Virus record (IMG/VR): IMGVR_UViG_3300040944_000011
Location: 1 to 36,708 of that record
Strand: one strand, 5' to 3'
Source: a virus
DNA: 36,708 bases
Below the pieces are notes generated by a model. The model searched no databases. It saw only the letters and a list, made by a program, of their open reading frames with translations, and had not been told where the DNA came from. The translations under genes were made by a program, and so were the position numbers. Below are positions 5,665 through 23,073 of the stretch, in pieces. Each line of letters starts with the position of its first letter. Position 1 is the first letter of the stretch.

Positions 5665-6030
5665 TTAGATGCTCCTGCCGATGCCCGGGATAACCCCACT
5701 GAACTCCGGCAAGACCTTTCCGTCTCCTTCCATCATTGCCCACAAATGCAAACAGTGCGCATGGATGTTGACGTAATTCTCCTCTGGCGGGAAGACCGCG
5801 TAAGCATAGAGGTCACTGCCTATAAAAGCGTTCTTGATCTTCACGGTGTCATCGTGGTTTGGTGTCCAAGACTTGCGAGAATAAGACACATGTAGCCATT
5901 GGCGACCATCCTCTTTCTCTTCGCAGTCCACCAGGACCCGTAACCCGCCATCTTTCTCGCGAACGGCATAGCCGTCTCCCCACTTCTGGATGACCTCCCA
6001 TCCTTTTGGGCACTCGAATTTCCAGTCCAA
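5665..6030 (-). CDS. DUF7694-like conserved phage protein
   Basis: About 121 residues. Recognisable segments are WLHVSYSRKSWTPNHDD, VKIKNAFIGSDLYAYAVFPP, and YVNIHAHCLHLWAMMEGDG-KVLPEF. They match a widespread phage family (DUF7694, from memory) with an HVS motif, a VNIHPxCLHLW motif and a DF ending. No ATG is available. The TTG at 6030 follows a GGGGG tract by seven bases and falls inside a palindrome copy. Starts further upstream would overlap the glycosyltransferase gene. Function is unknown. Confidence 0.65.
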   Translation of the reverse strand: MDWKFECPKGWEVIQKWGDGYAVREKDGGLRVLVDCEEKEDGRQWLHVSYSRKSWTPNHDDTVKIKNAFIGSDLYAYAVFPPEENYVNIHAHCLHLWAMMEGDGKVLPEFSGVIPGIGRSI

Positions 6031-6038
6031 CGTGGGAC
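6025..6038. promoter_or_regulatory. Dispersed 14-bp palindrome, copy 2 (GTCCAACGTGGGAC)
   Basis: Exact match to GTCCMACGTKGGAC at the junction between the glycosyltransferase stop (6042) and the next gene's probable TTG start (6030). Confidence 0.7.
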
Positions 6039-6041
6039 CCC

Positions 6042-6743
6042 CTATCTCTTTCCGATCACCATCTCCCCACCTGTGGGGATCGGCATCGTCTGCACGGCGC
6101 TTCGATCGTAGTCTGCATTCGTGACCTTGTGGGTTCGCAAATGGTAACTCTCGATTAGGGGAGAGATGTAGGTCTTGATCCCCAACCTCCGCAGGCGTAT
6201 AAAGAGCGAGAAGTCCTCGGACCATTGGCCGATGATGTCGAACGGCTGTTCCCCTAATTCGTTCTGAATCCGGTCGAATACCCGGCGTTTTACCAACAGG
6301 CATCCGGCCCCCACACACGATACTTGCTGGAGCATGGCGTTCCAGTCCAGTTCCGCGATGGTCACGAAGCCTTGGGTTTCTTCGTTCCAATGAAAGGCCA
6401 CTGGGAGGTGAGGGTAGACCTTGTACCTATAGAGGGCCGAAAGCACTTCCACATCGCACTTCTTCATCAACTGAATCATACGAACCGCGATGTCGGGGTC
6501 AAAAGCATGATCGGTATCCAACATCAGCAGCCAGTCTCCCATCATCCCCTTCACAAGCTGATTTCTCGCGGAGGAATGGTAAGAAGTGCTCGGGGCCATC
6601 AAGTGAACATACTCACCGGGCTTACAAAGGAACTCGGAGTCGAACTGTATCATTTGGGCAAGGGACCAGCAGAACTCCCACGGCACCGAGGGAACGGATC
6701 CCATGATCCCAAGGGTCCCAATCGGCTTATTCATCAGCAGCAT
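6042..6743 (-). CDS. Glycosyltransferase, GT-A fold
   Basis: A 233-residue protein. The motif LMLDTDHAFDPDIAVRMI (from about residue 72) carries a DxD (D-T-D) for metal and nucleotide-sugar binding. Later segments WSEDFSLFIRLRRLG and the GAGCLLVKRRVFD region match the acceptor side of small phage and bacterial GT-A enzymes. It likely transfers a sugar from a nucleotide-sugar donor in the cytoplasm. It is one of four glycosyltransferase modules between 6 and 10 kb. Acceptors could be host surface glycan, virion protein or modified DNA; the sequence does not decide. Confidence 0.75.
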   Translation of the reverse strand: MLLMNKPIGTLGIMGSVPSVPWEFCWSLAQMIQFDSEFLCKPGEYVHLMAPSTSYHSSARNQLVKGMMGDWLLMLDTDHAFDPDIAVRMIQLMKKCDVEVLSALYRYKVYPHLPVAFHWNEETQGFVTIAELDWNAMLQQVSCVGAGCLLVKRRVFDRIQNELGEQPFDIIGQWSEDFSLFIRLRRLGIKTYISPLIESYHLRTHKVTNADYDRSAVQTMPIPTGGEMVIGKR

Positions 6744-6746
6744 GGT

Positions 6747-7415
6747 TCACTCCAGTGGCGGCAGGTCTTCGTGCTCAAATCGTTCAATCTGTTGTTTGGA
6801 CCACTCCGGGTCATACAGATGACGGAAGGGGTGCTCCCAAAACGCATCATGGTTTAAAGCCACGGCGGGGTTGTCGATCAGATTCCAGAATTTCCACCCC
6901 CGCTTGCTCGCCCGAAACGCGACGCTTTGATTGTCGCAAGCCCATTTCTGGTCCATGCGCTCATCGAACCCGCCGATGTCCTTCAATGCCTTCAGTGGTG
7001 CCGCTGCCCAATCGGCCTCCCAGTTCATCCAATGCGGTTCACCGCGATTTTCAGATCTCCACTCTTTGACTAAGGGTGTCTTGTAGAACATCTTCCCGTT
7101 CATCTCCCAATACCCAGGAGCCTTCGGGACAGGGGCGGTGAAGAAGTACCCCGACATGGATCTGAATGCCTCAACAAACTTCTGAAGTCCGTCGCGCTCA
7201 AACCAGAGCCAGTCCTCAGCTACCACCACCAGTTTCCCGCGCGCCCTACGGAGCATCGAGTTGAATGCGGCGTTGAGCCGATGCTCTTTTCCGCTGTCGA
7301 TCTCCACCAGCCATTCAAAATCTTGGCACGTCTGATCCTTCAGGGATTGCTCGATGGGCCGAAGGGCCTGAAGCCCCCTAATTGTGGGGCTGAGAACACT
7401 GACCAGAGGCGTCAT
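6747..7415 (-). CDS. Glycosyltransferase family 2
   Basis: A 222-residue protein. VSVLSPTIRGLQALRPIEQSL and the following FEWLVEIDSG form the first Rossmann half typical of GT2. VVVAEDWLWF probably supplies the acidic metal-binding site, and DIGGFDERMDQKWACDNQSV matches the GGFDE...D acceptor segment. Its ATG overlaps the stop of the HAD gene upstream by one base (TAATG), so it is co-translated with the cassette. No membrane segment is seen. Donor and acceptor unknown. Confidence 0.75.
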   Translation of the reverse strand: MTPLVSVLSPTIRGLQALRPIEQSLKDQTCQDFEWLVEIDSGKEHRLNAAFNSMLRRARGKLVVVAEDWLWFERDGLQKFVEAFRSMSGYFFTAPVPKAPGYWEMNGKMFYKTPLVKEWRSENRGEPHWMNWEADWAAAPLKALKDIGGFDERMDQKWACDNQSVAFRASKRGWKFWNLIDNPAVALNHDAFWEHPFRHLYDPEWSKQQIERFEHEDLPPLE

Positions 7416-7876
7416 TAGAAATTACCGTCCGCAACTTGAAAGACCCGTAGGCCACGAGCGCGGTACATGTCCACTACTTGCTTACGATCCTCAAAGACTC
7501 CACCGATTTCAACTCCTCCTGGCCTGTCTTTAATGAGTTGGTCGAGCAACTCCGATTTCACAACGGAATCTTCTCGGTGGTCCCCTTGCTTGCGCATGTA
7601 CAGGCCGCTAAACTGGACATCGTGCTTCACAAGCCATGAAGTAGTCGCGGCCTCCACTTCGTCGCTTCGCCCCGATATGAGGACTATTCCGTATCCGGCA
7701 TCCCATAGAATCCTGGCGACTCGGATCACTTCATCTATTGGCTTATCGTTGGGACAAGCCGCGAAGAAAGCGCGCCAATCTGCCGCGTTTGGTGTGTGGT
7801 CTGGCTTGCGAGTGATTAGGTGAAGGCGATGCGATAAATCCGCGAGGGTACCGTCAATGTCAAATATATAAATCAT
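7415..7876 (-). CDS. HAD-family polynucleotide 3'-phosphatase domain protein
   Basis: About 153 residues starting MIYIFDIDGTLADLSHRLHL. DxDGT is the HAD nucleophile motif, SGR gives motif II, and the LYMRKQGDHREDSVVK and GVFEDRKQVVDMYRARGLRVF segments closely follow the phosphatase half of T4 polynucleotide kinase/phosphatase. No P-loop kinase domain is present, so it would be a stand-alone 3'-phosphatase. The start at 7876 has GGAGG nine bases upstream and overlaps the upstream stop (ATGA). A role in RNA or DNA end repair is known for the family; why it sits among glycosyltransferases is unclear. Confidence 0.8.
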   Translation of the reverse strand: MIYIFDIDGTLADLSHRLHLITRKPDHTPNAADWRAFFAACPNDKPIDEVIRVARILWDAGYGIVLISGRSDEVEAATTSWLVKHDVQFSGLYMRKQGDHREDSVVKSELLDQLIKDRPGGVEIGGVFEDRKQVVDMYRARGLRVFQVADGNF

Positions 7877-10080
7877 CTCAGCCATCCTCCGGGAGGCTTG
7901 GCGTGATCCCACTTCTTCTTGAAGATCTCCATGTTCCGGTCGTACCTTCGACGAAACTCTTCTTGGTCATAATACGAGCGGAAGGTTTGGCCTTGAAGGT
8001 GTTGGGCTCTAACGGGTTTAACGGCGATTGTAAACCCGGCGATTCTGGCTCGCGCCAGAAAATCGTCATCGAGAAATCCGTATCCTCCGTTGAACTCCTC
8101 GTCATAAACGTATCCGCCGACAGCCTCGTAGACGTTTCTCGGGATGCACCACAGCGAGGTTTCCAGCTTCATCTGGCCAGTCAATACGAAGGTCTCAGGT
8201 GCCCACGAAGTAACCGTTTCTGGGACTGCCATTGTCTCCAGCCAATCGGGATCTTCGATCATAACGTCATTGCACACGATGAAAATAAACTGCCCTTGCG
8301 CTTTTTCGAAGGCTAAATTGATGGCGGTGGCCTCTCCTTTCTGATCGGCAACGATGATCTCGATCCCTTCGGGGGAGTTCTGTTTGATTAACCCAAGGCT
8401 TCGGGCCGACATCTCCCTGACTTTACCTTCTGGATCGTAATCCACAAACACTACAGAGTACTTCGGTCTGTCGTCCACTGCTACCACCCCTTCCCCACAT
8501 ACTGGGTCAAATCCATACTCGATTGGGTATCGGACAATTGCCTTCAAATGCGCTTCCCTCAGCCACGAGTCGATCACTTCAGGAGGACAGTGATGGTGCT
8601 CACCATATCCCGATGGTGCTATGGAGTCGTCTGGATTCGGATGCCGCGTGTCATTCGGAACAGTGAAGACAATCCTGCCACCGGGTTTCAGCAGTTCCTT
8701 GAACTTCAAGAGTTGCTTGGGAACCGCGTCCGTGGGAAAGTGCTCCAGAATCTCTGTCGCGGCCACAACATCGAACGAATGCCGCTGAAACGGTCGGGGG
8801 AGGTCGCGGGCGTCTGAAATGATGTCCGCTGCGTTGGGTTTACAAAGGTGCTTGTCGAACTCGTACTTGTCAAGATTAACGGCACCGATCTTCCGCATTT
8901 CTCCGCCATCGTCGCAACACCCTACATTCAGAATCTTCCCCTGACCCTTAGAGTGCTTGAGCGCAAAGATGAACTGTGCGCCGGTGTTTTTGTGATCCTC
9001 GACACCATACATCCATGTCTCGATGAAGTCGATGTACCGCTCCCAGTTGAAGGTAGATCTTGCCCACGGCATCATGTCGGCGCGGATCTGCTCTTGCAGT
9101 CCCACGTTGGACGCCAGCTTGTAAATCTCCCCAACATACCGGGCCTGCGTTAACGGATCTTCTGGATCACCAAAGATCCAGATTCCATGAAGGCAATAGT
9201 CTCCCGCTGCCCATGTTGGGGAAATGATCGGGATGGCACCCAGCGCCATTTCTTCGATACCAGAAATAAACCCCGTTTCCGTAAACAGCGTCGGGTGAGC
9301 CGACATCCCACAGGACAATTTCTCCTGGTATAGCCGCTTCTGCCCGATCCTGCCCAGATGAGTGACCCCCGGTTGTTTCATCTCCCGCATGGCCTCATCG
9401 TAAATCAGCTTCCACTGATTGGTCGGCGGGTTCGAGGCGATGATCTTCTCCATGTTGTCGAACCCGTAGGCAATGACCAATTCAAGGTCATGCACCCACT
9501 GACGCGCTTTACGGAAGATCTTCAACAGGGGGAGGAGTCCGCGATCAGGAGAACTGGCAAAGATGATCTTCCTTGGATTTCTCGTGGGCACGCCTTCGGC
9601 CTCGATCTCCCGTATCAAGTCGTTTCGGATGCCATTGAACCCCTGGCACACCTTCTTGGCGTATTTGGGGTACTCTTTCATCGTGAAACTGGCATGAGTC
9701 GGGCAGAGAGCGATAAAGCGGTCTAATTTCTCCCACCGTTCCTCGGTAAGGTGGGGGTAGAACACATCTTGGCTAACCAATGACAAGACCTGTCCGGGAT
9801 GCTCAAGGGGGAAATTATCGAGGACCTCTGGGCACCGAGACACGAACCACCATCCAGGCCGGGTGTAATCGGCCTCAGAAAGGGGTAGCCAGCGCGTCCC
9901 TAGCCACTCAGGGGGCGTATCCTGCCGCAGGGGGGCGTAGACCACCACCTCGTGCCCGCGCCTCGCCAAGCGCCTAGAAACCTCCACAACGGCGGTCTCC
10001 GAACCGCCTATTCCGGGGTCCTCAGGGTTGCGCATATCCCAAGGCTCGAAAGTGACGGGGCTGATGATCGTTACCTGCAT
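7873..10080 (-). CDS. Three-domain fusion: GT4 glycosyltransferase, methyltransferase, GT2 glycosyltransferase
   Basis: A 735-residue protein. Residues 1-365 resemble GT4 (GT-B) enzymes: GIGGSETAVVEVSRRLARRG (23-42), then TETGFISGIEEMALGAIPI around 267-285, the E-x7-E donor site. Residues ~380-535 are a class I SAM methyltransferase: GKILNVGC (381-388), an acidic strand-2 residue in VNLDKY, and AATEILEHF (440-448) with LLKPGGRIVFTVP. Residues ~540-735 are GT2-like: YSVVFVDYDP, CNDVMIEDPDW as metal motif, GGYGFLDDDFLARARIAG. It probably builds and methylates a glycan; chain-capping by methylation is known for bacterial O-antigen systems. The target is inferred only. Confidence 0.8.
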   Translation of the reverse strand: MQVTIISPVTFEPWDMRNPEDPGIGGSETAVVEVSRRLARRGHEVVVYAPLRQDTPPEWLGTRWLPLSEADYTRPGWWFVSRCPEVLDNFPLEHPGQVLSLVSQDVFYPHLTEERWEKLDRFIALCPTHASFTMKEYPKYAKKVCQGFNGIRNDLIREIEAEGVPTRNPRKIIFASSPDRGLLPLLKIFRKARQWVHDLELVIAYGFDNMEKIIASNPPTNQWKLIYDEAMREMKQPGVTHLGRIGQKRLYQEKLSCGMSAHPTLFTETGFISGIEEMALGAIPIISPTWAAGDYCLHGIWIFGDPEDPLTQARYVGEIYKLASNVGLQEQIRADMMPWARSTFNWERYIDFIETWMYGVEDHKNTGAQFIFALKHSKGQGKILNVGCCDDGGEMRKIGAVNLDKYEFDKHLCKPNAADIISDARDLPRPFQRHSFDVVAATEILEHFPTDAVPKQLLKFKELLKPGGRIVFTVPNDTRHPNPDDSIAPSGYGEHHHCPPEVIDSWLREAHLKAIVRYPIEYGFDPVCGEGVVAVDDRPKYSVVFVDYDPEGKVREMSARSLGLIKQNSPEGIEIIVADQKGEATAINLAFEKAQGQFIFIVCNDVMIEDPDWLETMAVPETVTSWAPETFVLTGQMKLETSLWCIPRNVYEAVGGYVYDEEFNGGYGFLDDDFLARARIAGFTIAVKPVRAQHLQGQTFRSYYDQEEFRRRYDRNMEIFKKKWDHAKPPGGWLR
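9099..9112. promoter_or_regulatory. Dispersed 14-bp palindrome, copy 3 (GTCCCACGTTGGAC)
   Basis: Exact match to the consensus, mid-gene within the three-domain glycosyltransferase. A mid-gene position is more like a stoperator, or a host-wide iterated motif, than a promoter operator. Confidence 0.65.
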
Positions 10081-11051: not shown

Positions 11052-12653
11052 TTAGTGAAACGCCGTAATCAGCATACCTAGCGATTGACTCGGATTGACA
11101 ACAAAATTGAAGCTTAGTTGTGTCTGCGCTGTGTCAAAGAAGTGGAGGCCGACATCGCCATTTGTGAGTCCACTCGAATCACCGCCGCAAACCCCGGCAG
11201 TCGTGACGGAACAAGCGTTGATGGCGGTTGGGCACGGGAAATCGTCCACTACACCGGTCGGACCTGAGACAGACAGAACAGGCCCCGTTCCCATTGTGCC
11301 AGTACCAATCAATAAATCATTGGTTTCGCCTGGAGTTATCAGTGGCACCCCGGATATCGAGGCACCCGTGGATGGAGTGCTGCCCGCTGTCGTGTCCTTA
11401 AAGACAGATGAGGATGTGATTTGAGTACTGCCAGAGCCAGCCGTTGCTGCCGTGTCGAGAGAGGTAGCTGTGGTGCAGTAATAAGTCAGAAGGTCGTTGC
11501 CTCCGCCAGCGCTGACGGCACTAATCGTATAGGTATTGGGGTTTGAGATCGTGACGCTGTGGTACCAGACCGTCCCACTTCCACCACCATTTGACACGCT
11601 GGAAAAATTATTACTGAGACTATCCGAGACACTTGTCACGTAAGAAGCATCGTCGGTGACAACCACCATGGTTGTATTTGTGGGACACGGAATGTTTTGC
11701 ACATATGTAGCCGCCACATTAGACATATTCTGCGAGGATGCGAGCACCTGTGCCCCAGATCCAGTCGGGGCCGACCCTCCCGAACCGGGCTTGAACGCAG
11801 CAGCCATGATAGTGAATGAATCATGGGTTGTTTGAGAGATTGTGACCGCGGGAGTAAAGCTCGTCGCCGTGGCTATGCAATACATCTCCAGATGACCGGC
11901 AAATGTATTCTCATCCAATAGAGTGCAGCCGGAGGGTATCGTGATCGCGCCCCAGGCGTTGCCCTGCTGTATCGTGTTGTTTTCGCTCTCATCATCCACT
12001 TCGATATAGACAAGATCGCCCACCACCACGGTGATCCCTGTGCCGGAAATGTTCGGAGCCGTGTTATTGGTTGGAACTACAGCAGTCTTGCAGGAACTAG
12101 TTCGCAGGGCACCCGTCGTAGCAATATTATAGAAACTTCCAAGGCCGAAATAAAAATCTCCTGTTTTATGCCCCCACGTCACGGTTACTTGTGTTGGGGT
12201 GGTGGTTGCAGGGGGGACAAAATTCATCGCGTAGTAGATGTTATGATCTGCTCCATTTGGAATCGCAATCCCAGCGTCCTTGCAACCTGAACCGACCGTG
12301 AAAGTTGAGTTCCACGTATTCCCGCTTCCGCTGTTGCCATTGTCCGTCAGAGTTGGCGTGCAGGGTGACGCGCACGTTTGGACATATCCATTGCCGGTAG
12401 TGGGATTGTTGGGCCATTCCCCCGAGACGATTACGAGGGAGCCGGTGGTCACGCCGTTGGGCCAAGCGGTCGGGTCTAGCGTAAAAATAGGAGCGTTCAT
12501 ACCAGTGGTTGTTGAACGCGTGATTACATTCTTGCCGAAAAATTGGGTCAACGACGGAGTACCACCTGAAGCATGGGAGCCCATCGTCCCTGGACCCGGC
12601 ATTGGAATCTGATGCCAGGACAGCGAGAGGAGAACAAGAGAAAGTAAAATCAT
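11052..12653 (-). CDS. Large beta-rich secreted/virion surface protein
   Basis: A 533-residue protein whose ATG overlaps the previous stop (ATGA) with GGAGGGTGGAG upstream. The first ~14 residues (MILLSLVLLSLSWH) form a short hydrophobic segment that may act as a signal peptide or anchor. The rest is rich in Thr, Ser, Gly, Asn and Val, with several strand-like repeats and paired cysteines (CASPCTP, CKDAG), as expected of beta-sandwich fibre or adhesin domains. It follows the 1357-residue fibre protein, so a fibre tip, spike or host-surface protein is likely. Confidence 0.6.
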   Translation of the reverse strand: MILLSLVLLSLSWHQIPMPGPGTMGSHASGGTPSLTQFFGKNVITRSTTTGMNAPIFTLDPTAWPNGVTTGSLVIVSGEWPNNPTTGNGYVQTCASPCTPTLTDNGNSGSGNTWNSTFTVGSGCKDAGIAIPNGADHNIYYAMNFVPPATTTPTQVTVTWGHKTGDFYFGLGSFYNIATTGALRTSSCKTAVVPTNNTAPNISGTGITVVVGDLVYIEVDDESENNTIQQGNAWGAITIPSGCTLLDENTFAGHLEMYCIATATSFTPAVTISQTTHDSFTIMAAAFKPGSGGSAPTGSGAQVLASSQNMSNVAATYVQNIPCPTNTTMVVVTDDASYVTSVSDSLSNNFSSVSNGGGSGTVWYHSVTISNPNTYTISAVSAGGGNDLLTYYCTTATSLDTAATAGSGSTQITSSSVFKDTTAGSTPSTGASISGVPLITPGETNDLLIGTGTMGTGPVLSVSGPTGVVDDFPCPTAINACSVTTAGVCGGDSSGLTNGDVGLHFFDTAQTQLSFNFVVNPSQSLGMLITAFH

Positions 12654-15600
12654 CGCTCCACCCTCCAGTTTACCTCAGCCCCGCTTGCCACGGTTAAAGA
12701 TCCAGTGGACCAGTTGCAGACTTGGAAGTTCACGTTGTTTGTCGTTGGATAAGCAGTGATTGCTAAGCCACCCGTAGTAGCTGGAGTGAATCCGGTGACC
12801 GCTCCCCACGCCGCATTCGGGGTGAACGAGATAACATCAGTTGAGGCCACTCCAGATGCCGAGATGGTCAAAGTAGCACAACTTGTGCTAGTAATCGCCC
12901 CTAGACTATTCAATGATCCAGTCGAGGATGATGCAGTCGTACCCGTGGCAATAGTTTGGGGAATGTTGTACGCAGTACCACCTGCAAGGGCGAGGGTAGC
13001 GGCTCCAGATACTCCTGCCGTTCCCGAGCCACTCTTGGCACCGCCCGCTCCAGTGACCAACGCGATATTCCCTCCCGCGCCACCAGAATCATTACCCGCC
13101 CCGCCTGCCCCGCCAGTGCCCGAGGTGATAGTGATTGTCCCACCAGCACCTCCCACTGTGGAGGTGGTGCCCGAGCCGGTCGCTGCACCTCCTGTACCGC
13201 CTGCGATGGCCGGAGAACTACCAACGCCTCCAGTGTTGGTCCCAGTTGACGAGGTAGCACCGCCCGCCACGCCACTGATATTGAAGAGGGTTGTGGCTGT
13301 CGTACCGTTGCCGCCTGCGCTGGCTGGAGCTGTTCCTGCTAGTGTCAACCCAGAACTGGAAGTAATAGGATACGTGAAGGTAGCGTCGGCGGTGGGGTTG
13401 GCCAAGCCAGATGTTGACTTATCGAGCGTGATTGCAGGTAGATCACCGGAGGCAATGGTTCCCCATACTGGCGCTGCACTGACCGTCCCGTTGCCCGTCT
13501 GGACTAGGAAGTTTTTAGTACTGGTGGTGTTGCCCGCCAGACGGGTGGGCGCTGGAGTAGAGTTCTCATAAATCAAATCTCCGAGGGTGTTCATCGGGTT
13601 AGTGAGAATGTTCGACCATGAGGTTGTGCCTGATCCATTGGTGGTGAGGGAGTACCCATTTGTGCCCCCGGTGGGCGGCAGGGTGAAAGTGTAGTTGGCT
13701 GTTGCCGCGCTAGCTAGGATTGTGTGGAAGGCGGCACTGGGGTTAGCCAGTTGGAGAGTGCCGCCCACGCTGTTGTCCACGCCCAGAGTTACAGCCGCCG
13801 TCCAGGAGGATGCGGAGGTGCTGGAAGCGTTGGGAACAGTTCCCGCCGCAGCGGAGGTGGCGTTCGTGCCACCCTGAGCGATGGTCACATTCGCTTCACT
13901 ACCAACCGCGTAAGTCGAACCGGCAAAGGTCGCTATTCCAGCACTAGGTTGGCTAGTAGCATACACCAATCCACTAGCAACGATTGGACCTATTACAGTA
14001 ATACTGCTAGCAGGAGCGGCAAAGTTTAGCGTAGTAGTGTTAGTCGTGCCCAACACTAACTGGTTTGTAGCAGCCGTAATAGTCTGAGCAGCAGTAAACG
14101 TATTAGCTCCCAGCGTGGCAAGAGTACTTGTAACGTTAGGAGCAGTAACAGTCACTGCTCCAGAACTAGTGGGGAACGACAAAGTGGTCAGATTAGAACC
14201 AGCACCAAATATCAACTGGTTAGACGTAGGGGAGAAAGTCTGTGCGGTACTCCAGGTATTTGCTTGCCCGATACCAGGAATAGTTTGAGAAGTCGTTGGC
14301 ATGGTAAAGGTTGCTGTACCACCCAACGCAAACGTAGCGGTATAGGCTCCTGTCTCTGTTATACCGCCGCCACTTGCGATAGACAATCCAGTAACCGTAG
14401 TAGCCGCAATCGCTCCAGTACCAATCACTGCCAACGCACCAGCGGAACTCATTTGTACCCCGTTACCGTTGCTGTCGAACCGGACGGGGTGTGCCGCTGA
14501 TCCAGACGCCGTACTAACTCGAAAGATATTACCAGTACCTGTGTTACTGGCCGTATCCGTCAACTCAAATAAATCTATAGCAGATCCAGTCGTAGAATTG
14601 TAGGTAAGAGTGGTAGTGTCGGCCGCCATTGTAAGCGATAGATTGCCAGTTGGATTTCCAATAGAACTCCAGCCTGGACTACCTCCCGATGGACAGGTCT
14701 GGAAAGATGGGGTAGTAGTCCCATAGCTAGTTGCACCAGACATCAAACATTGTCCATTACCTGTGGGAGTTACCCATGTTGGATTTGTTGCACCAGACAT
14801 CAACGCACTATACGCGGTCGTTGCTAACCCGGCAAGTGCTGTTGGGGATGATCCATATACAAGATATCCTGCGGTCATTGACGTTGGGTAGGCAATGGTT
14901 GAGAAGATTGGATTCGCCGCTCCCTGTCCAATGAGAGGCATATTAGATGCCCCCTGTGCCGTGGACACCGGGGATGACCCAGAAGCTCCGGCAAGCACCA
15001 CCCCGTATTGCGTGAGGAGACTTCCGCAAGATATAGCTGTCGAGGTCGATCCGTAAAGAATGCCGCCCTGCGTACAGGAGCTTGGGTGAGAAACCGTAGA
15101 GTACGCCGGAGTTGCAGATGCCCCTTGGCCGACCAACGGCATATTTAGCGCTCCTGCTGCAAGCCTTGCCGCCGCTCCCGACGAACCACCAACAAATAAG
15201 TCCCCGGTCGTCGTTAAGGGGTAATTCGTGAGTGATGCGATGGCTGGAACGTAGGAAGCCGTAAGCGCTGTCCCATTCCATACTCCAGAGCTAATCGTAC
15301 CAACCGATGTCAAGCTTGATCCAGTGCCACAAATCCCAGTCTGCGGGTTTAATAGTTCCCAGTAAGTTCCATCATAAGTGGCAATGGCGACAGCGGTTGT
15401 CAATATATCGTTGGCAACCAAAGCGCTCTGCCCGCACTTGGTAATCGTCGGAGAGCTAAGGCCGTTGACCGTTAAGGTGGGAGCGGCGGCGGTATTAGCT
15501 GCCGTAGCCTTCCACATCACCGTTAATCCAGCGACCATTAATGTAGCTGGCGGAGCCAACGTCACGGTTTGCGCCTGAGCGGTCCCGCCACCCGCAGCGT

Positions 15601-19893: not shown

Positions 19894-21363
19894 TCAGAAA
19901 AGCGTCGAGGCGAGTTTGAAACAGGTCCGGGGGCTTGGCACCATTAGATTTGAGCCGCTAAGGAACTGGCCGCTCACATCGATCGAGTTGTTCACGCCCT
20001 TGAATCCGGTAAACCCGAATTGAAACAGGTCTACCTGGGAGAAGTACCACTCCACGTAGGCCGTGTTCAATCCGAACATCTTGCCGATCGGCGAGCTACC
20101 CGAAGGAAGATACCGCGAAATGACCACATCGGCGGCATTGAACCTGAAGTTCTGGAATCCCACGTTGGCCAGATCGTTGTCTTTATTCTCATACCGCATT
20201 GCAGGCTGCGTGCCCTGCCAGATCAAGTTCCAGCCGTTCTGTGTGACCACTATCAGGTCCGGGTGATCCGAGCCCCAACAGGCGTTTCCATAGGCCGTGT
20301 TGAGTTGTGCCAAGGTGAACGTGGTCACCGTGGCCTGATAGGCATTCAGCCCGCCAACGGTGCCAGTCGTCAAACCATTGATATCGGTTCGGTTCTGGCC
20401 GCCGACTTGGGAGTAATTTGTTCCGTCGTCGATCCACTCATCAAATCCGTTCAGGTATTTAGCCCGCGCACCCTGCCCGTTCTGGTACATATTGACGGCC
20501 AGGATCTTCGCCATCTTCAATGAGGCGTTGAGGAACTTCATCTCTACCTGATTGAAAATCGCCTCTTGGCCATCGTCGTTCATCGCGTCCCATCCGTATA
20601 GCGTGATGTTTACCCACGCTACCTTCAGGTCCACCGTGATCGCCGCGTCGGTCGTAACGAAGTTGATGTCCATCGTTTCGCCCTTGCCCATAAAATCGCC
20701 GAGGAGTTCCCCAACAATCACGGGCCTCCTTACGCGGCTGTTGCCCGCGAATCGTTCTGCTCTCTGCTGACTGAGCCTAGTAAATGCAGGATCTGCACCG
20801 TAGATGATCGTTCGTGTTGCGACCGGGTTCGCTATTCCCGGCCTTCTCACACTTTCATGTGAGACCAGACCATATCATCACCCCGAAGGGTGCCGCGCGC
20901 TTCCGAGCACTTGCCCGTACTCCCCGAAGGGATGGCCGTTGAACGTTCCCATTTCTGGGCTTCGCTGCTGATTACCCCGAAGGGCTTCCCAGCAATTCAC
21001 GCGGTTTTCGAGGCGGCTTTCACCGCCAAGGGACTATCAGTTAATCCGTTGTCTTCTCTACGATGTAATCGTACACATCCTTGATGTTGCGACCGGGTTC
21101 GCTATTCCCGGCCTTCTGCAAGTTTCCCAGCAGAGCAGATCATCTCATCGGCCCGCTTCGGGTCGCCTCGCGCTTCGGGCCGCTTGGCCCTACTCCCTCT
21201 CGGGATGATCGTTGAACCTTCCGACTCTCGTCGGCTTGGCTGCTGATTGCCTTGCCCGCCAATTCGGGTTTAGGTGTCCCAGCAATTCACGAGGTTTGCA
21301 TAACCGATCTCTCGGCTAAGGCCCTATGTCTAAGGCGTCCAGCTCCGTTAGCTGCAAGGCCAT
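19894..21363 (-). CDS. Major capsid protein, interrupted by two group I introns
   Basis: Exon 3 (20808-19894) gives most of the shell protein: GADPAFTRLSQQRAERFAGN, a central VDLKVAWVNITLYGWDAMND region, KILAVNMYQNGQG, and PDLIVVTQNGWNLIWQG. The open frame there lacks a credible start. I propose exon 1 at 21363-21333 (ATG with AGGAGG at 21377-21372), exon 2 at 21078-21044 and then exon 3. The join keeps one frame and gives MALQLTELDAYVYDYIVEKT followed by TDIIYGADP, 326 residues in total. An HK97-like fold is assumed from position after the scaffold. Splicing is inferred, not shown. Confidence 0.8.
20809..21043 (-). ncRNA. Group I intron 2 in the capsid gene (235 nt)
   Basis: Self-splicing type intron without an ORF. 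P1: exon GGAT pairs with GTCC, with the splice-site U opposite G. P2 hairpin GGCGG/CCGCC. P3-P8 core: TTGCTGGGAAGCCC, a TAATCAGCAGC joining/P6-like segment, and P7 strands ACGGCCAT (20929-20944 region) with ATGGTC (20865-20876 region). P9 hairpin near the 3' end; last base G at 20809. P10: exon AUCA pairs with UGAU. Conserved core elements are those of phage group IA introns (T4 td type). Boundaries are my proposal. Confidence 0.8.
20815..20847 (-). repeat. 33-bp identical P9 hairpin, copy in intron 2
   Basis: Identical to 21085-21117. It folds as GGCCGGG/CCCGGTC with one G-U pair. It is near-terminal in each intron. Confidence 0.85.
21079..21332 (-). ncRNA. Group I intron 1 in the capsid gene (254 nt)
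   Basis: ORF-less intron related to intron 2. P1: exon GCCT pairs with GGGC (U opposite G). P2 hairpin CCGA/TCGG. Core includes GAATTGCTGGGACACC (21290-21277 region), AATCAGCAGCCAAGCC, and P7 strands ACGATCAT (21217-21202 region) with ATGATC (21146-21135 region). The last base is G at 21079. P10: exon AUGU pairs with ACAU, with the same one-base offset as intron 2. The parallel structure supports recent common origin. Confidence 0.8.
21085..21117 (-). repeat. 33-bp identical P9 hairpin, copy in intron 1
   Basis: Same 33 bases as 20815-20847, while the rest of the introns has diverged. Either the P9 segment is under strong constraint or it was homogenised by recombination. Confidence 0.85.
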
Positions 21364-21383
21364 TCTACGTACCTCCTATTTCA

Positions 21384-21412
21384 TTGACATTGAGTAGGGG
21401 TTGGCGTACACT
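21384..21412 (+). promoter_or_regulatory. Promoter of the HNH gene, predicted leaderless
   Basis: TTGACA (21384-21389), 17-nt spacer, TACACT (21407-21412), then six bases to the ATG at 21419. The -35 box is consensus. No ribosome site is possible if transcription starts at the ATG. Confidence 0.75.
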
Positions 21413-21418
21413 AAACGT

Positions 21419-22126
21419 ATGGAACAACCCCAGCAAACAAAGATCAGACTGAGTACTCGCGTGTACAAGGCCTGTCCTCACTGCGGAGAACAACATTCCG
21501 CCAGAGAAATATGGCCGCACCGAAAACGGTGCGAGCTTAACCCTAAGAACCTGCCGAAGACGATAAAAGAGGCCCCAAAGAAAGGTCCGGGAATGCCTGT
21601 GTCTTGCAACTACTGCGGACACAAGACCGTGCAGTTGCTTCTTCAGAGACATTTCGCAACCTGCCCGAATATCACGATCCTCGAAGGACAGAAGGTCTGT
21701 ACTATCTGCCAATCCATCCTGTCGATAGATGACTTTTCGGCTCATTGCAGATCTCCGGGCGGAAGAAGCAACATCTGCAAGAAGTGCGCCTGCGCGAGAT
21801 CTACGACTTGGTATCACACGCCGAAGAATCACATGTCCCGTAGAGAACGTATGGAATACAAACTCTACGGCCTCAGTCCAGAAGGACGAAAGTCCCTTGA
21901 GACTGCGCAGAACGGTCTGTGCGCCATTTGCGGTAAGCCGCCCAGCGGAGGACCGAAGAACGAGAGGCTGGCCGTCGATCACAATCACAATTTCCCCGGC
22001 ACTCACCGAGCACTCCTTTGCGAGAAGTGCAATACAGGCCTCGGTGGGTTTTTGGACGACCCGGCCTTGCTCGTCAAGGCAATCGCTTACCTTGCGAGTC
22101 ACCGAAAGATCGCCGCTGTTTCCTAG
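21419..22126 (+). CDS. Endonuclease VII-like HNH (homing) endonuclease
   Basis: About 235 residues. The C-terminal domain (LCAICGKPPSG, LAVDHNHNFPGTHRALLCEKC, NTGLGGFLDDPALLVKAIAYL) matches the recombination endonuclease VII family: CxxC zinc site, DHNH catalytic motif, second CxxC. N-terminal segments CPHC, CNYC and CTIC suggest three more zinc fingers for DNA recognition. It lies on the opposite strand between scaffold and capsid genes, just upstream of the intron-split capsid gene. A free-standing homing enzyme that cleaves intron-less capsid alleles is the likely role. A TTG further upstream (21401) overlaps the promoter, so the ATG is preferred. Confidence 0.85.
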   Translation: MEQPQQTKIRLSTRVYKACPHCGEQHSAREIWPHRKRCELNPKNLPKTIKEAPKKGPGMPVSCNYCGHKTVQLLLQRHFATCPNITILEGQKVCTICQSILSIDDFSAHCRSPGGRSNICKKCACARSTTWYHTPKNHMSRRERMEYKLYGLSPEGRKSLETAQNGLCAICGKPPSGGPKNERLAVDHNHNFPGTHRALLCEKCNTGLGGFLDDPALLVKAIAYLASHRKIAAVS

Positions 22127-22142: not shown

Positions 22143-22164
22143 GGGAGCGCTATACTGCGCTCCC
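22143..22164. terminator. Hairpin between HNH and scaffold 3' ends
   Basis: GGGAGCGC (22143-22150) pairs perfectly with GCGCTCCC (22157-22164), six-base loop. It lies just past the HNH stop and overlaps the end of the scaffold gene. No clean U-tract on either strand, so it may act as a weak bidirectional terminator or RNA end protector. Confidence 0.4.
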
Positions 22165-23073
22165 GCTCATTTCCTTCTCTAACTTCTTCTGGACGTACTG
22201 CTGCGAGATGATCCCTTTACCTAAAGGCGCTTCAATGGCGTCGCCTTCCTTGGGCTTCAACCGTTCCAGTTGGCGCCGCTGCAAAGGTCCCAGCTTCCTT
22301 CCGCCACCGCCGCCGTCCACAATCGTCGGACTGTGCCCGCTCAACGCCGCTGCTTGCTTGCGGCCCTCCGCAATGCCTTCTTCGCGAGCCGCCTTCTTCT
22401 CCGCTTCACGGGTCGCCGTATCGCGTGCTGCGAACTTATCCTTGTAGAAGTCGTTGTAGGCTTCGTCTGGGTCGATGTTCGCCATCGATGTTTTCTTAGC
22501 TTCGGCCAACTTCTTCATGTGCTCGAAGACGGCGGGCGCATCCAAGGCCTCTCCGAAGGTCTTCTCGTGCGCCCCGAATTTCGGCGTCAATTTCTGGTAG
22601 ACCTCCTGGAAGCGATTGCCCCAACCGTTGATAGTCGAGTTCAGTTCGGGGCGGATTTCCTTGTCCCGAAATTCCGTCAGCTTCGAGGTCAGCGTGTTCA
22701 CATCCACCACGCCCTTCGCGGTCAGCGATTCATCGATCAACTTCTTTACGTCTTCGGCGGTCATATCAAGTTCTCCACGCGCCCGCAACTTCTCCACCTC
22801 TGCGGTGGCTTCGGCTAGTGATGTCCGAACGCGGCTGTGTTCTTGTTCCCACATAGGCCAATCTGTTTCCTTGAAGTGCCGCCATTTCTCCAACTCCTCG
22901 ACTACCGGAGGCAGAGTTTCGTATTGAAGTGCTTTGACCCTGGGAAGTAATGGTTCCACTTGCTCCCCAAGTTCGGCATATCGTTTCACGGCAGGATACT
23001 TCTCGGAGATGGCCTTGAGACTGTTGCGTTCGCCGTCATCGGCGATCGCGGCTAATAGGTTCTCAAAGGGCAT
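22150..23073 (-). CDS. Scaffolding protein
   Basis: A 307-residue, highly charged, mostly helical protein located between portal-side genes and the capsid gene. Long helices include VVEELEKWRHFKETDWPMWE, and TSLAEATAEVEKLRARGELD; the C-terminal part is Lys/Glu-rich (EAEKKAAREEGIAEGRKQAA) and ends KKLEKEMSGSAV. Composition, size and position match capsid scaffolds, which direct shell assembly and then leave or are degraded. No protease domain is present, so the maturation protease must be separate. Confidence 0.7.
   Translation of the reverse strand: MPFENLLAAIADDGERNSLKAISEKYPAVKRYAELGEQVEPLLPRVKALQYETLPPVVEELEKWRHFKETDWPMWEQEHSRVRTSLAEATAEVEKLRARGELDMTAEDVKKLIDESLTAKGVVDVNTLTSKLTEFRDKEIRPELNSTINGWGNRFQEVYQKLTPKFGAHEKTFGEALDAPAVFEHMKKLAEAKKTSMANIDPDEAYNDFYKDKFAARDTATREAEKKAAREEGIAEGRKQAAALSGHSPTIVDGGGGGRKLGPLQRRQLERLKPKEGDAIEAPLGKGIISQQYVQKKLEKEMSGSAV

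Follow-up and report, generated by a model that had tools for sequence, protein, structure and literature searches.

The window, by which we mean the whole 36.7-kb virus record analyzed here, carries a gene for a major capsid (head) protein, with terminase-like and portal-like genes upstream of it in the expected order. Two candidate introns interrupt the 5′ end of this gene, after coding nucleotides 31 and 66, and a nuclease gene separates the scaffold-like gene from the capsid gene (Table 1). The predicted spliced product matched PHROG 9953 (major head protein; E 1.7e-17) and was 23 to 27% identical to annotated head proteins of Mx8, Mx9, BUCT555, ppBjS10J-1, and others; no Pfam family was matched by this protein.

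Table 1. Features at the capsid locus, in positions of the window, listed in the direction of capsid transcription.
Feature	Positions	Strand	Basis or remark
Scaffold-like gene	22150..23073	−	precedes capsid gene; name inferred from position
Endonuclease VII-type gene, free-standing, 235 aa	21419..22126	+	antisense, directly upstream of capsid gene
Shine-Dalgarno-like AGGAGG	21372..21377	−	8 nt 5′ of the ATG at 21363; sequence
Exon 1, 31 nt	21333..21363	−	MALQLTELDA plus first base of the next codon; splice model
Group I intron 1, 254 nt, ORF-less	21079..21332	−	RF00028, 51.8 bits; covariation with 7 relatives
Intron 1 P10 segment ACAU	21326-21329	−	sequence
Intron 1 internal guide GGGC	21321..21324	−	forms P1 with GCCU, including the splice-site U-G
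33-nt tract of intron 1	21085..21117	−	identical to 20815-20847; P9.1 region
Exon 2 (micro-exon), 35 nt	21044..21078	−	with last base of exon 1 gives YVYDYIVEKTTD
Group I intron 2, 235 nt, ORF-less	20809..21043	−	RF00028, 82.2 bits; first codon is an in-frame TAA
Intron 2 P10 segment UGAU	21036-21039	−	sequence
Intron 2 internal guide GUCC	21031..21034	−	forms P1 with GGAU, including the splice-site U-G
33-nt tract of intron 2	20815..20847	−	identical to 21085-21117
Exon 3 of major capsid (head) protein gene, stop included	19894..20808	−	

Computed removal of both introns left a single open frame of 326 amino acids, and under this splice model the capsid protein in the virion would begin ALQLTELDAYVYD. 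Keeping intron 1 led to a stop after 15 amino acids, keeping intron 2 to one after 22, and skipping exon 2 to one after 20. We compared the locus with its relatives, for which twenty-three IMG/VR loci were fetched at first. In intron-less relatives the N terminus MALQLTELDAYVYDYIVDKTTDIIYG is read through without a break, and one of them (L009) has VALQLTELDAYVYDYIVDKTTDIIYGADPAF at the place where the splice model predicts MALQLTELDAYVYDYIVEKTTDIIYGADPAF. The exon 1 peptide is unbroken in L008-L011, L014, L017, and L021, and exons 1 and 2 form one continuous reading frame in L005, L041, and the intron-less relatives. L005 (also L006 and L007) contains intron 2 alone, its first two exons running together in frame, and the intron 2 site is filled in L041 as well. 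Over the 66 nt of exons 1 and 2, the window differed from L008-L010 by 11 synonymous and 2 to 3 non-synonymous nucleotides, with one non-synonymous difference accounted for by the start codon (ATG/GTG). The original prediction, which had observed that the open frame of the capsid gene has no credible start, had joined 31 and 35 nt to exon 3 to obtain 326 residues and had named intron-less homologues as the test; its splice model proved exact, the relatives hold the exon 1-2 peptide uninterrupted, and they place the conserved start at exon 1. Assembly error was considered as a source of the interruptions and judged unlikely, since the capsid region is identical across five separate IMG/VR contigs (L001-L004 and L016).

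Both segments matched the covariance model RF00028 on the minus strand along model positions 1-253, intron 2 at 20846-21053 (82.2 bits, E 1.3e-19) and intron 1 at 21116-21342 (51.8 bits, E 1.6e-10), the latter score being close to the curated threshold of 50 bits yet full length. In each intron P1 consists of four contiguous pairs with a U-G at the splice site. Inspection of the sequence also revealed that the last base of either intron is a G and that P10 spans 4 bp in each, offset by a one-base spacer (ACAU/AUGU and UGAU/AUCA); P10 is not conserved in every relative. We aligned eight related introns and derived an RNAalifold consensus, in which 62 pairs including the P7 pseudoknot were paired in 96.1% of pair cells, relative to 31 to 44% in slid controls. 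Two-sided changes occurred at 35 of these pairs, 0 of 500 shuffles scored as high as the real alignment, and the P3-P8, P4-P6, and P7 helices are maintained by compensatory changes. The P7.1 and P7.2 hairpins (helices 9 and 10) are present in the consensus and likewise show two-sided changes. Two extra hairpins of this kind, between the 5′ strand of P7 and the 3′ strand of P3, are the mark of subgroup IA, and by this feature the introns appear IA-like. The structural claims of the original prediction (that a covariance model should match, that P1 carries a splice-site U-G, that P7 strands are present, that each intron ends in G, and that a P10 of 4 bp recurs with equal offset) are all borne out by these results. 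We conclude that tandem ORF-less group I introns, separated by a 35-nt middle exon, interrupt the capsid gene, a point that the comparative sequence evidence confirms. Both introns are very likely spliced, and the full reading, in which each is removed by means of its own guide to yield the 326-aa capsid protein, is very probable.

Two other readings of the 5′ end were weighed against this one. The capsid could instead start at the GTG at 20850, with the upstream stretch being non-coding or a degraded insertion rather than introns; the mechanical ORF at 19894-20850 is indeed open for 318 aa. We regard this as barely credible and rejected the internal start, because the RNA model is matched at full length and, in relatives lacking the introns, translation from a conserved start yields the exon 1-2 peptide. 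Moreover, the N-terminal residues that a start at 20850 would add are read from intron P9 sequence and vary among relatives, and exons 1 and 2 are dominated by synonymous changes. The second reading accepts the introns and supposes that having two of them permits regulated skipping of the micro-exon, a form of alternative splicing with precedents in Twort (PMC3073962) and in the SIOphi terminase (PMC11878797). Skipping of the Twort type requires guides usable on each other's 5′ splice site. Here the guides GGGC and GUCC each make four contiguous pairs with their own site versus one contiguous pair across, the guide of intron 2 matching exon 1 at only one contiguous base and the reverse combination faring likewise. 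Since the guides do not cross-pair, and since skipping would also shift the frame into a stop after 20 codons, we rejected exon skipping as very improbable. Removal of both introns thus remains our preferred reading, and a gene finder run on this phage would call the wrong capsid start and lose 22 conserved residues.

Several observations on the relatives are recorded here in their own right. In L023 (4701-4745) and L057 (1930-1965) there is no ATG, GTG, or TTG at the position of the relatives' capsid start, and the codon aligned after GGAGGGTATC is ACG in L023 and ATT in L057; it is possible that these two capsid genes use a non-canonical start. L057 is contig JASIKQ010000143.1, a 3.7-kb piece of an Acidobacteriota MAG (Candidatus Sulfotelmatobacter), and it was the single relative found among the bacterial genome contigs searched, which gives a weak hint that Acidobacteriota may be the host group. 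L013 carries at least nine tRNA genes clustered downstream of its capsid gene (5800-7406). An AlphaFold2 model of the L008 capsid protein with 10 relatives reached a mean pLDDT of 35 and was set aside.

Taking the window and its relatives together, six places in the capsid gene are occupied by related ORF-less introns, five of these places within 40 nt. Besides the pair in the window, introns of this family lie after coding nt 27 (L013), 42 (L057), 57 (L023), 66 (L005 and L041, the site of window intron 2), and about 150 (L042), and in most of them an in-frame TAA follows straight after the splice site. The two window introns belong to the same family and are alike in length, and they share the 33-nt hairpin to which the original prediction had drawn attention: positions 21117-21085 equal 20847-20815, in the P9.1 region, and the chance of an identical run this long in the window pair is ~1.5e-4 given the column identities of the family. 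These likenesses would fit a tandem duplication of one intron inside the gene. We consider that origin unlikely, given that the window introns are 71% identical to each other overall, below the 77% between intron 2 and the intron of L005 at the same site, and that other intron pairs have tracts of 30 and 37 nt in common too. The latter finding also suggests that introns of this family recombine in patches. An intron tree likewise speaks against duplication, placing intron 2 with L005 (75/88) and intron 1 with L057 (80/81), albeit with weak support; only 1 of its 23 inner branches was well supported, and claims drawn from so poorly resolved a tree are weak. By these sequence comparisons, the window introns are probably separate acquisitions that were afterwards subject to patchwise recombination.

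The original prediction was right about the introns at this locus but overlooked both their clustering in the relatives and the antisense Endonuclease VII-type gene beside them. Scanned as the TTG-started frame at 21401-22126, the product of this gene matched PF02945 (E 4.4e-18) and phrog_2633 (E 2.8e-30). Its zinc cysteines and the residues of its DHNH/R/N motif are intact; the DHNH, R, and N residues and the zinc cysteines are essential in T4 Endonuclease VII and F-CphI (PMC6083498). The best match by sequence among solved structures was Hpy99I, followed by T4 Endonuclease VII. In L008-L010 there is no nuclease gene at this place, and the scaffold-like homologue ends ~43 nt before the capsid start. 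We counted co-occurrence over 34 capsid lineages defined at 95% identity, which are not independent of one another, and found the nuclease beside the capsid gene in 7/7 intron-bearing versus 2/27 other lineages (Fisher p 6.7e-6, uncorrected for kinship); the two lineages with nuclease and no intron are L011 and L017. The independent events behind this association are few: a tree-based paired test of the same co-occurrence had ~4 pairs and was underpowered (p 0.25-0.5). In a tree of the nucleases, which left out L005, the branches were long, and we drew no conclusions from it.

The introns encode no mobility protein of their own, and the likeliest agent of their spread would be the Endonuclease VII-type enzyme encoded upstream. 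Such an enzyme would cut intron-less capsid alleles, and repair would then copy the introns and the nuclease gene together, as in collaborative homing. By analogy with known systems, we lean slightly toward collaborative homing by the neighboring nuclease as the best explanation of this neighborhood. The rival account, to which we attach a substantial chance somewhat short of even, is that the nuclease gene has nothing to do with the introns, being an ordinary resolvase or a self-homing gene (intronless homing) that landed in the same hot spot. It is consistent with the occurrence of the gene without introns in L011 and L017, with the fact that Endonuclease VII is also a family of Holliday-junction resolvases, and with the ability of free-standing nuclease genes to home alone (PMC6083498). 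It accords less well with a gene that is optional, antisense, and missing in 25 lineages yet present in every intron-bearing one, and the structure matches, with Hpy99I ahead of T4 Endonuclease VII, do not single out a resolvase. Our more ambitious and rather doubtful proposal, which extends collaborative homing, is that the family of Endonuclease VII-type genes beside the capsid gene drove repeated seeding of related ORF-less introns at nt 27, 31, 42, 57, 66, and ~150 of this essential gene. If so, the introns stacked round the micro-exon would be the product of a homing hot spot that is local and flexible as to site, and not of classical homing at a single site. Because this family of loci offers intron-less, one-intron, and two-intron alleles of one gene together with a candidate mobility enzyme, it provides a way to test how introns lacking an endonuclease of their own spread, and whether introns at several nearby sites are served by a single enzyme.

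We scanned for the intron pattern more widely, and at least 120 stretches matched. Among the matches listed, several had two or more introns, and some of these were tandem introns in other capsid-like genes. The single viral stretches L058, L115, and L159 each gave three or four matches to group I introns. Like the window, L148 and L080 have tandem introns in capsid-like genes, and in phage C72C1 (L179) a group I intron interrupts another coat gene, one whose annotation reads major head protein; the capsid genes of all three are unrelated to, or very distant from, that of the window. In L080, where two group I introns interrupt an unrelated capsid-like gene at 7344-8518 (boundaries approximate), the middle exon is also very short, ~18 nt encoding NRDYEG, but the second intron, unlike those of the window, holds an HNH-type ORF. 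A different kind of capsid-gene insert is present in L052 (~2267-2997), between GITL and GFDSM, with a LAGLIDADG-like frame LEYIAGFADADGSIGIS; searching L052 with RF00028 gave nothing at E 0.01, and upstream we found no Endonuclease VII gene. We found no paper in the open-licence literature on tandem capsid-gene introns with an adjacent Endonuclease VII gene.

One gut phage clade averages 18.5 group I introns per genome (PMC12363816). In the rNDPL gene of phiNIT1, two group I introns flank a small exon, and self-splicing was shown in vitro (PMC11878797). The capsid gene shares that layout, but it is another gene in another phage lineage, and its splicing is predicted. The SIOphi terminase undergoes exon skipping (PMC11878797), and in Twort, as cited in PMC3073962, one gene holds three group I introns and shows exon skipping. 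Twort resembles the window in that a single gene contains multiple similar group I introns at short distances from one another, and differs in that the guides here lack cross-pairing and skipping would shift the frame. In the system of F-CphI, the nuclease cuts intron-less psbA and the intron blocks cutting, which constitutes collaborative homing (PMC6083498). As with F-CphI and the psbA intron of cyanophage S-PM2, a free-standing gene with an Endonuclease VII motif lies beside a gene bearing a group I intron, and the nuclease active-site residues are conserved here. The window departs from that precedent in that the gene is a capsid gene with two introns, the nuclease is antisense and upstream, the relatives have introns at several sites, and cutting by the nuclease is a prediction. 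L127, a cyanophage stretch with two group I introns in a psbA-like gene and an Endonuclease VII-type gene downstream (12104-13346), parallels S-PM2 except for its two introns. The original prediction had called the arrangement unusual; the two introns and the micro-exon are real, but their rarity was overstated in view of phiNIT1, Twort, and the other capsid genes. Tandem introns with a micro-exon are thus of a known kind, and what is more interesting about this locus is the multi-site cluster of introns together with a conserved neighboring nuclease.
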